Positions 1 through 4,200 of a DNA stretch of 64,000 nucleotides are shown here, piece after piece (the first letter of the stretch is position 1; each line of letters begins with the position of its first letter). This DNA is from Chryseobacterium cheonjiense (lineage in GTDB: Bacteria > Bacteroidota > Bacteroidia > Flavobacteriales > Weeksellaceae), in contig NZ_JABBGF010000003.1 of the NCBI RefSeq assembly GCF_012927265.1, positions 248,001 through 312,000 of the forward strand, written 5' to 3'. A program made the position numbers and the translations under genes. The notes below the pieces were generated by a model that had not been told where the DNA came from, made no database searches, and saw nothing but the letters and a program-made list of their open reading frames with translations.

Positions 1-418
1 TTATGAATATATCAGCGAATGAAGTCCACAATAATCCGTTAAAAAAAACATTACCTTTCTTGATACTTAGGGATGTATCATTATCAATTATTTTATAAAA
101 AATTTGTTTTAATCTGTTTTTATCAAACAAAAATTGTCTTTGATTATTAGAGAGATGTCCGTTATATAGATTGATGATTTTTTTTTTGATATTTATATCT
201 ATTTGTTTGTGCGAAAAATTTGTAACTAAATATCTTAATCCGCTTATTTGGTATATTGCGCCTAAAACAACTGCTGATATTAAAGGAATTCCAATATCAG
301 ACATATTGAAATCAGAAAATTCTTTTTTTTGCAACGTAGAATAAAATAATTGAGTAATAATGTATATTATTATTCCTGGGACGAGTAGTCTCAAATTTTT
401 TAAAGTTGATTGCTCCAT
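1..418 (-). CDS. Hypothetical membrane protein, 3' end cut by the window edge
   Basis: An open frame runs leftwards from an ATG at 416-418 (MEQSTLKNLRLL) without a stop to the window edge, giving at least 139 codons. Two hydrophobic stretches are visible, at about residues 10-27 and 43-58, followed by a basic Lys/Asn/Ile-rich soluble part. I do not recognise the family. The composition (long A/T runs, Lys and Ile rich) is typical of accessory genes in low-GC Bacteroidota. It lies just beyond a decayed groL duplicate and may belong to the same acquired segment. The start is the first ATG; no good promoter box was seen before it. Confidence 0.6.
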   Translation of the reverse strand, partial: MEQSTLKNLRLLVPGIIIYIITQLFYSTLQKKEFSDFNMSDIGIPLISAVVLGAIYQISGLRYLVTNFSHKQIDINIKKKIINLYNGHLSNNQRQFLFDKNRLKQIFYKIIDNDTSLSIKKGNVFFNGLLWTSFADIFI

Positions 419-516: not shown

Positions 517-653
517 AAAAATACTGAAATTAGAATGGTTAGGGTAATTGTCTCAGCTAAAGGCTGTATTATATCATTCCTAGCATTCCTTCGCCATAAC
601 ATGACTGATCCTTCTTTTTTCACTTGAGTGATCCACATTCACTGGTTAATAAC
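517..653 (-). pseudogene. Decayed copy of the groL 3' end and its terminator
   Basis: This stretch aligns base for base, with scattered changes and small gaps, to 2468-2613, which holds the groL terminator and the last 28 or so groL codons. Shared blocks include TTGTCTCAGC, CATTCCT, CTTTTTTCACTT and GGTTAATAAC. Read on the minus strand it still gives LLTSEC, then an in-frame stop, then a GMLGMI-like tail matching the GroEL GMPGMM end. The terminator arms are degraded (GAAATTAGAATGGTT against GAAATCAGAACGGTT). It is not a functional gene. The simplest reading is that DNA was inserted or duplicated at the 3' end of groL and this is the older distal junction. Confidence 0.8.
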
Positions 654-664
654 AGCTTTTATAT

Positions 665-1437
665 CTAGTCAAGAATTTTTTTCATAATTTCAATTGCTTC
701 GGATTGAGCATCTTTGGCAATTTTAAATTTTTTTCGAAAAAAATAAAATACAGCATAATTGTACATTGGAAAACTAATAAAAATATATTCAGAGTCTTGA
801 TGAAAAAACTCAAAATGTGATTTCTTTGTTTTAAAAATTATTAATGAGTTTAAATTTGACGACTTATTTTTTATAGAAATATTCCTTTGCATAAATTTAA
901 GATTACTTAATGCTTTAAAAGGCTTCATCTCCCAAAAATAATTCATCCAAGAAACGGGCAGTGTCCCGAAATCGGAGAAAGGTTCATTAGCGTATTTTAT
1001 GTATTTTAACCTATTAGAAAACACTGAAGTTTATATTCTAAAATCTCAAGCCATCGAATAATATTTTCTAAATCATTAATATCATAATATTTATTTTTTT
1101 CAAGATTTTCTAAAATAAAAATTATTTTTTTTTCAATTTCTGCTAAAATTGAATTATTACAATTATTACATGCTGGGACGACACTTTTTAAATAAGAAAT
1201 TGATTGTTGATTTGCTCTTATTTCAAACCCAATATTTATTTTATTTTGAAATAACCATTTTGGAAGAACATGTTCTTTTGTTAAATTCTTTTGTGTCTTG
1301 CAAAATACGCAAATCTCCGAACCAACATTTAATGTTGCCGGGTGAAATCTGTAGAAAACATCTTCAGCTATTTCTGCACCATGCTTTCTTAGATTTACTC
1401 TAATAGGAATGAATAAAGAATTTATTTTTTTTGACAT
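665..1437 (-). pseudogene. HNH-endonuclease-like gene broken by a frameshift
   Basis: Two adjoining frames, 1006-1437 (143 codons) and 665-1024 (119 codons), read as one protein if a single base is added near 1024: the first ends EYKLQ-CFLIG-stop and the second begins VFSNRLKYIK. The N-terminal part has a zinc-binding HNH-like pattern: CVFC at residues 43-46, EHVLPKW from residue 55, and CNNC at residues 90-93. Intact, the protein would be about 258 residues. HNH proteins of this kind are predicted nucleases, often in defence or mobile contexts; the substrate cannot be told. It lies between two copies of groL-derived sequence. The break may be genuine decay or a sequencing error. Confidence 0.7.
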
Positions 1438-1515
1438 CTTTATACACTTATAGGGTGATTTTTTGCTAAATTAAAATATTATAATAATATTTATTATGTA
1501 AAACCGTAAAATAAA

Positions 1516-1539
1516 AACCGCTCTGAAATCAGAACGGTT
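1516..1539 (-). terminator. Terminator of the alpha/beta hydrolase gene
   Basis: Inverted repeat AACCG-C-TCTGA / TCAGA-A-CGGTT with a two-base loop, followed on the minus strand by T residues. It is identical in stem and loop to the groL terminator at 2472-2495, so the two arose by duplication. Confidence 0.8.
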
Positions 1540-1545
1540 GATGTT

Positions 1546-2430
1546 TTAATTGCCTCGGTCGCTGACCGCCTTCTGTTTTATCCATTGGATGGCAATATCA
1601 ACAGGTGCCGGATCATCTGTAAAAGAAGTATTGTGGCCCAATTTAGAAAAAAATGTGTATTCAAAAGGCTTGCCCTGCGCTTTAAATGCATTTAACTGTT
1701 CTATACACAACTTTACGGGAATCTGGATGTCTTTTTCGCCAAAAAGCCAAAGCCCGGGAATTGAAAGCGTATTGAGATAGGCTTTTGGGTCAGTCGCTGC
1801 AAATTGATACCGGTCAGGGTCATTTCTGGTATGCTCAATGGCATCTGCATCTGTATGATTTTCCCAGAAATTATTGTTTCCATTGGTGTAAAACTGAAAC
1901 CGGAGCTGTTCCAGCGTGGTAATGGTAGGGCAGCTAAATAAAACCATGAAGCGAATTTGTGAATTTTTGCCTGCCGCGATCGGGATTATCCATCCTGCCT
2001 GACTGAAGCCCAATAATCCCATTGGTATTTTGTCTTTTAAATAGGTGCGAAATGTTTTTACTGCAGCATCTGCATCCTGAGCCAGCAGGTTAAGATTGGC
2101 CGTGTCGATATTATTTGTGCCGACGGAAGGGCCTACATACACACCGCCAGATTCTCCAACGCCACGTTTGTCATAGGTCAATACAGCAATGCCTTCTTTA
2201 GCGAGACGCTTTGCAAACTCCATTTCTCTTTTTACAGGATCGGACCCGTGGACAATTACTACGGCTGCAAAGGCTTTTTCAGGCTTCAGGATGGAGCCCG
2301 CAAGAGTGATGCCCTGACTTTCAAACTTTACATCCTGAATGGTAAAGTCGGCCGACTGGGAAAATGCAGTTCCTGGTAAAGCTATTAATAATAGTAGAAT
2401 ATATACGTTAAAAAAAATATTGATTTTCAT
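1546..2430 (-). CDS. Secreted alpha/beta hydrolase
   Basis: The protein has 294 residues with an N-terminal signal peptide (MKINIFFNVYILLLLIALPG, cut near AFSQ). An upstream TTG start at 2460 is possible, but the ATG at 2430 puts the signal peptide first. The alpha/beta hydrolase pattern is complete: oxyanion strand VIVHGSDP, the YDKRGVGESGG segment, nucleophile elbow GFSQAG (Ser about residue 143), acid in FGEKDIQ and His in LGHNTSF. The substrate is unknown; the family includes esterases and peptidases, and the protein is probably periplasmic. It stands between groL and the HNH remnant, has its own TATATTTG box, and ends in a copy of the groL terminator. Its last codons (VSDRGN) match the groL 3'-flanking sequence, so its C-terminus was formed at the duplication junction. 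Confidence 0.8.
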   Translation of the reverse strand: MKINIFFNVYILLLLIALPGTAFSQSADFTIQDVKFESQGITLAGSILKPEKAFAAVVIVHGSDPVKREMEFAKRLAKEGIAVLTYDKRGVGESGGVYVGPSVGTNNIDTANLNLLAQDADAAVKTFRTYLKDKIPMGLLGFSQAGWIIPIAAGKNSQIRFMVLFSCPTITTLEQLRFQFYTNGNNNFWENHTDADAIEHTRNDPDRYQFAATDPKAYLNTLSIPGLWLFGEKDIQIPVKLCIEQLNAFKAQGKPFEYTFFSKLGHNTSFTDDPAPVDIAIQWIKQKAVSDRGN

Positions 2431-2471: not shown

Positions 2472-2495
2472 AACCGCTCTGAAATCAGAACGGTT
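2472..2495 (-). terminator. Terminator of groS-groL
   Basis: Inverted repeat AACCG-C-TCTGA / TCAGA-A-CGGTT followed on the minus strand by a run of seven T, about 30 bases after the groL stop. It is duplicated at 1516-1539 and in degraded form at about 517-540. Confidence 0.85.
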
Positions 2496-2525
2496 AATAT
2501 ATTAAATTGTCTCAGCGACACGCTG

Positions 2526-4200
<1,675 letters not shown>

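Follow-up and report, generated by a model that had tools for sequence, protein, structure and literature searches.

The region downstream of groL in Chryseobacterium is probably a cassette array resembling an integron, one that would spread through homologous recombination at groL as an accreting kind of "minimal mobile element". In the 64,000-nucleotide stretch of Chryseobacterium cheonjiense DNA analyzed here (the window) and in related species, we observe the anatomy of such arrays, their spread through the genus, the reuse of cassettes in unrelated species, fixed cassette-specific junctions, and type switching inside the groL copy. We found no earlier account of groL (groEL) cassettes or partial duplications in this genus in openly licensed papers.

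The resident groL of the window (2526..4151, minus strand; 541 aa, from the open reading frame list) is complete and shares 94-99% amino acid identity with complete groL in relatives; the part found repeated is its final 100-250 nt. Its 3' UTR (2472..2525, minus strand) carries a small hairpin, CAGCG-TGT-CGCTG, after the stop codon (2513-2525) and a terminator hairpin (2472-2495) with a T-run, an organization alike in kind in the groL genes and groL copies of relatives. Downstream of groL come, in order, a hydrolase gene, a terminator copy, a frameshifted HNH-like gene, and a degenerate groL end. The last of these had been reported in a preliminary description of the window, and it is real: local alignment of 441-760 to the groL region recovers 546-654 (groL -88 into the UTR) plus a terminator remnant at 517-541, with a score of 190, while 200 shuffles reach at most 92. 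This copy (no. 2; 517..654, minus strand) spans groL from about -88 to +47 around the stop codon, with indels, a broken reading frame, and a ruined terminator. The terminator remnant that had been proposed within it can be aligned, though its fold is lost (z = -0.4, as against -5.6 for groL's own terminator and -3.8 for copy no. 1). In a genome-wide search, the stretch matched only itself and the end of groL (79% over 110 nt, E = 3e-19).

The preliminary description had recognized this copy alone and overlooked another. The groL terminator hairpin has two occurrences genome-wide, one after groL (2472-2495) and the other, identical over 24 nt, after the hydrolase gene (1516-1539), so that there are two groL-end copies downstream, not one. 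Copy no. 1 (1513..1570, minus strand) combines a 3' UTR of another type (CGGTCAGCGACCG, 1556-1568) with an intact terminator (1516-1539), and is fused to the end of the hydrolase gene, whose last codons come from the copy. The hydrolase reading frame ends within CGGTCAGCGACCGAGGCAATT, which in several other species follows the groL stop codon.

The cargo of the first cassette is an alpha/beta hydrolase (1546..2430, minus strand; Hydrolase_4, Pfam PF12146, E = 8.5e-12), whose coding sequence starts at the ATG at 2430. Inspection places TATATTTG, of the Bacteroidota -7 type, at 2458-2465, immediately past the groL terminator and before the hydrolase coding sequence. The second cassette holds the HNH-like gene (665..1437, minus strand), in two frames, which match a 257-aa homolog at 88% identity over residues 1-140 and 76% over residues 138-252; intact 257-aa homologs occur in two other species (L047 and L093), likewise in groL arrays. 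The hydrolase gene and HNH-like remnant described earlier between groL and the degenerate end are both present, then, and the remnant is a frameshifted copy of the gene for this 257-aa protein. On the cassette reading, the window contains two units, the older of them decayed, between groL and a distal defense-like pair of genes. This pair lies behind the last copy (L003:8732-10418; the window's share ends at 418) and is possibly a defense pair: its first gene (1..418, minus strand, running beyond the window) encodes a 220-aa protein without a family match, and the next gene, outside the window, a 345-aa DndC-like/PAPS-reductase protein.

The arrangement recurs throughout the genus. A nucleotide search of 98 Chryseobacterium genomes (one per species) with a 188-nt groL end finds a match in 97, and 53 of the 97 carry between two and seven copies. 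As controls, the groES and rpoB ends occur once in each genome, a single 32-nt chance match being the exception. A protein search with the GroEL C-terminus shows second copies in 44 of 99 genomes of the genus (counts read off the table of matches), and no second groL end in any of the 143 matching genomes from 32 other genera of the family. No sequence from the body of groL lies downstream of groL in any sampled genome; the copies represent its last part only. Related species show one to seven groL ends behind groL with differing genes between them. The cargo between groL and the far flank differs across about 56 species (the comparison being of species, not strains), and single-copy genomes have variable genes behind groL too. 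On one side there is always groL; the far flank is a kelch-repeat family (F1) in 31 sampled regions and otherwise varies. At least one site is almost empty (L065), with the conserved kelch-repeat gene 360 nt after groL. These comparisons bear out the suggested insertion point: the 3' end of groL is a hot spot for insertions, with a variable locus and a nearly empty site. They do not support the accompanying idea that an insertion duplicates the groL end as a transposon or site-specific element duplicates its target. The left edge is not fixed, the arrays have no associated integrase, and the groL fragment behaves like a piece that accompanies each cassette, so the copy makes better sense as the terminator and right-hand homology arm of a cassette than as a duplicated target.

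The anatomy was worked out from about 60 groL-downstream regions, one genome per species. Each array unit consists of its own leader/promoter, one or two genes, a groL 3'-end copy, and a groL-type terminator. Units are 0.3-5 kb long and free of integrase. Within the arrays, 109 of 111 reading frames are co-directional with groL; past the last copy the ratio is 267:31. The left edges of the copies are spread between -246 and +29, counted from the groL stop codon, while the right edges lie mostly at the terminator (+57 to +65), and some copies are terminator-only (45-70 nt). There are 69 cargo families, mostly unannotated, 16 of which recur across arrays of two to nine species; defense-like examples include an NsnB/AriA-like ATPase and a PDC-S33 protein. 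The hydrolase of the window turns up as cargo in 13 Chryseobacterium regions of the sample, and 12 of these are represented on the groL tree.

Several minor features accompany this anatomy. A conserved leader of about 150 nt, of two main types and with the TAnnTTTG promoter element, lies between a groL-type terminator and unrelated cargos (L040, L051, L059, L075, L088, and others). A box within the leader, GCAATGCGTAAATTTGGATGTTA, found before many cargos, was considered as an integron-type core and dropped; since it contains the Bacteroidota -7 element TAnnTTTG and cassettes share a longer leader similarity, a promoter is the simpler reading. Mini-cassettes without a gene were seen at L036, L037, L047, L048, L049, L052, and L053; they have a groL end and terminator, then CCTTGTCAAGGTTTAAAACCTTGACAAGG, a perfect palindrome of 30 nt, and then another groL end. 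The groL 3' UTR itself comes in at least six unlike types in the genus (e.g. CAGCGTGTCGCTG, CGGTCAGCGACCG, or TAGCGTAAGCTA). Among Rfam families, none was found at the arrays or the attC-like repeats of the scanned loci, where the only hits, elsewhere, were to Flavo-1.

Cassettes shared between species show how the units are joined. The same cargo has the same cargo|groL' junction within a few bases (-135/-135/-137, -200/-200, -122/-122, -139/-139, -113/-113, and -134/-135 in different species), and different cargos have different junctions. Identity between shared cassettes is 87-100% in the cargo and 85-98% in the first 40 nt of the groL copy, drops to 67-79% in the groL 3' UTR for all pairs but one, and is about 50% past the terminator, where a different cassette comes next. 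The UTR type behind an identical cargo and junction often differs between species, which places the switch within the groL copy, as expected if the copy had served as the homology arm joining the cassette to a resident groL end. The genome's own groL is the best match for 15 of 60 copies, the remainder being closest to the groL of other species. On the groL tree, the UTR types need 25 changes over 56 species, and the carriers of a cargo are scattered, its presence requiring as many changes as it has carriers: 12 for the hydrolase, 7 and 6 for two other cargos, and 4 for each of four more. These counts show patchiness and not direction, because the tree is of one gene with one genome per species.

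We propose that cells take up DNA of other strains or species and that RecA-type homologous recombination then moves the units. The resident groL with its terminator would be one arm, and the groL copy at the far end of the cassette the other, both able to pair with a single resident groL end. With such pairing a cassette would go in behind groL, groL would stay whole, and cassettes would accumulate, while recombination between copies would delete them. A cassette family probably has a single origin, the chance joining of a gene to some point in the last 250 nt of groL. Some results count against this reading. The terminator-only copies, at 45-70 nt, are short for homologous recombination, and the arrays are confined to one genus. 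Insertion at groL should also leave donor sequence in the groL coding 3' end, and Mantel windows detect no recombination imprint there (r = 0.68-0.78, as elsewhere in groL); this is the main gap on the side of the sequence data. Genes for ComEC and DprA, which speak for the proposal, are present in the genome of the window; such genes occur in non-competent bacteria too. We found no demonstration of natural competence for Chryseobacterium in the openly licensed literature. Also on the favorable side, two members of the family, both Riemerella species, are naturally competent; Flavobacterium johnsoniae was not under the same conditions (PMC8383284, PMC7965970).

Alternatively, the arrays could be integron-like in mechanism as well as in form, the groL 3' UTR and terminator hairpins being recognized by a trans-acting enzyme, either an XerC/D-like recombinase or a tyrosine recombinase of unknown identity, with the copies as its att sites. 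The co-directional single-gene cassettes, the constant right edge at the terminator, the existence of terminator-only copies, the occurrence of the hydrolase in attC-like arrays of other genera, and an excess of complementary cassette ends (8 of 67 cargo families, with 2.6 expected) all fit this model. We nevertheless judge it unlikely: the left edge is not fixed, the sequence switch in shared cassettes falls upstream of the terminator, inside the groL copy, and no integron integrase (TIGR02249) scores over the cut-off in any of 59 genomes of the genus. A lone tyrosine recombinase (PF00589) was observed 64-924 nt after groL in one species (L089), on the opposite strand and pointing towards groL. 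It was rejected as a constant partner of the arrays, as it is found beside groL only there; its relatives in six other genomes all lie away from groL. The copies might instead be the flanks of integrative elements (islands or prophages) that used the groL 3' end as attB and were reduced to little cargo. The 3' ends of genes often serve as attachment sites, and one array does contain a 45-kb prophage-like block. Units of 0.3-5 kb without an integrase, with variable left edges, and with no fuller parental element in about 60 regions make this very unlikely. Genomic islands have an integrase in the element and a constant attachment core; here the edges vary, and the L089 recombinase has its relatives away from groL. 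The 45-kb block itself (G071 contig C4, 26-71 kb; L043/L076/L077/L042) lies between copy 1 and the rest of the array; by inspection its gene content is Mu-like (that of a transposable phage), so we regard it as a bystander. An integrase-bearing mobile island was accordingly rejected, the block being Mu-like and not tied to the groL end.

Two further explanations dispense with cassette movement. Lineage-wise tandem duplication of groL or its end, followed by decay and by unrelated insertions between the copies, would account for the several decayed copies, such as that of the window, and for those closest to the resident groL. It is highly improbable given that the groES and rpoB ends are single and that the same cargo and junction appear in scattered species, a shared junction in unrelated species refuting it for that cassette; duplication of the whole groL was rejected, as remnants of the groL body are absent downstream. 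Finally, the fragments might be inconsequential, retained by chance in an ordinary variable region behind a highly conserved gene, and single-copy genomes do have variable genes there. We give this the slightest of chances: copy number, recurrence across the genus, fixed junctions, and the controls at other gene ends oppose it. The recurrence data refute it for the genus, and it is possible for single decayed copies.

The preferred reading, accretion by homologous recombination, has its nearest functional counterpart in the minimal mobile elements (MME) of Neisseria (Saunders and Snyder 2002, whose definition is quoted in PMC3082526). MME are whole-gene cassettes without mobility genes that vary next to conserved genes by homologous recombination; their hosts are naturally transformable bacteria, in which the cassettes differ between strains. 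In the groL array, too, whole-gene cassettes without mobility genes vary next to a conserved gene, and homologous recombination would incorporate them. Alternative MME cassettes lie between two conserved genes, and hence they replace one another. Each groL cassette, in contrast, brings its own copy of the groL end, so that cassettes accumulate in tandem and need no platform besides groL, and it would be exchanged between species of the genus. In layout, the array is more like integrons and CALIN (attC clusters that lack an integrase): single-gene cassettes lined up in tandem and sharing an orientation (109/111 reading frames co-directional), related hairpin-bearing repeats, and cargo mostly of unknown function, the hydrolase among it being found with attC-like repeats in Flavobacterium and others. 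It differs in that its repeat is the end of a protein gene plus a terminator rather than attC, that the left edge is variable where attC has a fixed crossover, that there is no integron integrase, and that every unit has a terminator and many have their own promoter-like leader. Also comparable are the orphan C-terminal modules of rhs/CDI genes, 3' fragments that pile up behind the intact gene and offer homology through which they can be exchanged. In those systems the exchanged 3' end is itself the part that varies and functions, whereas in the groL array the end stays constant and the cargo is the intervening gene. Overall, the groL array is functionally closest to MME and resembles an integron array in layout, but the defining integron features that were tested, an integrase and a fixed attC core, are lacking.

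More generally, and more tentatively, the 3' end of a housekeeping gene may act as the general "attachment site" of an integrase-free system, in which any gene joined to the groL 3' end becomes a mobile cassette that can be inserted after groL in any Chryseobacterium, and former integron cassettes are taken in as well. If true, no integrase is needed for an integron-like array to arise; an essential, highly conserved gene would supply in its end a portable homology arm and terminator, and the genus would have a cheap route for exchanging accessory genes, some of them defense-like. Other conserved genes in other naturally transformable bacteria may then be predicted to be similar docks. The arrays would themselves be a ready catalog of exchanged genes.

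A link to integrons comes from the hydrolase. Relatives of the window's hydrolase (69-86% identity) are found in many Bacteroidota away from groL, where the gene often lies between direct repeats of 80-160 bp with complementary border boxes (GTTGTAGGCAATGC ... GCACTGCCTACAAC). These repeats look like attC sites, an assignment made with pattern tests of our own rather than a dedicated attC model. The window's own cassettes have no attC boxes, and in most Chryseobacterium arrays the hydrolase lacks the border boxes and is instead joined to groL, as a rule around -170. Of 67 cargo families, 8 have cassette ends that are complementary at no fewer than 10 of 13 positions, with 2.6 expected from mismatched pairs. 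This minority of cargos with complementary ends, together with the hydrolase in attC-like arrays elsewhere, suggests that some cassettes that once belonged to integrons have probably entered the groL array, the groL end replacing the attC site. Flavobacterium and its relatives are genera in which integrons are reported to be rare. Close relatives of the window's hydrolase stand in attC-like arrays there, at L138, L145, L110, L118, L135, L153, L155, and others, and the first of these, in Flavobacterium lotistagni, has at least eight attC-like repeats in 10 kb.
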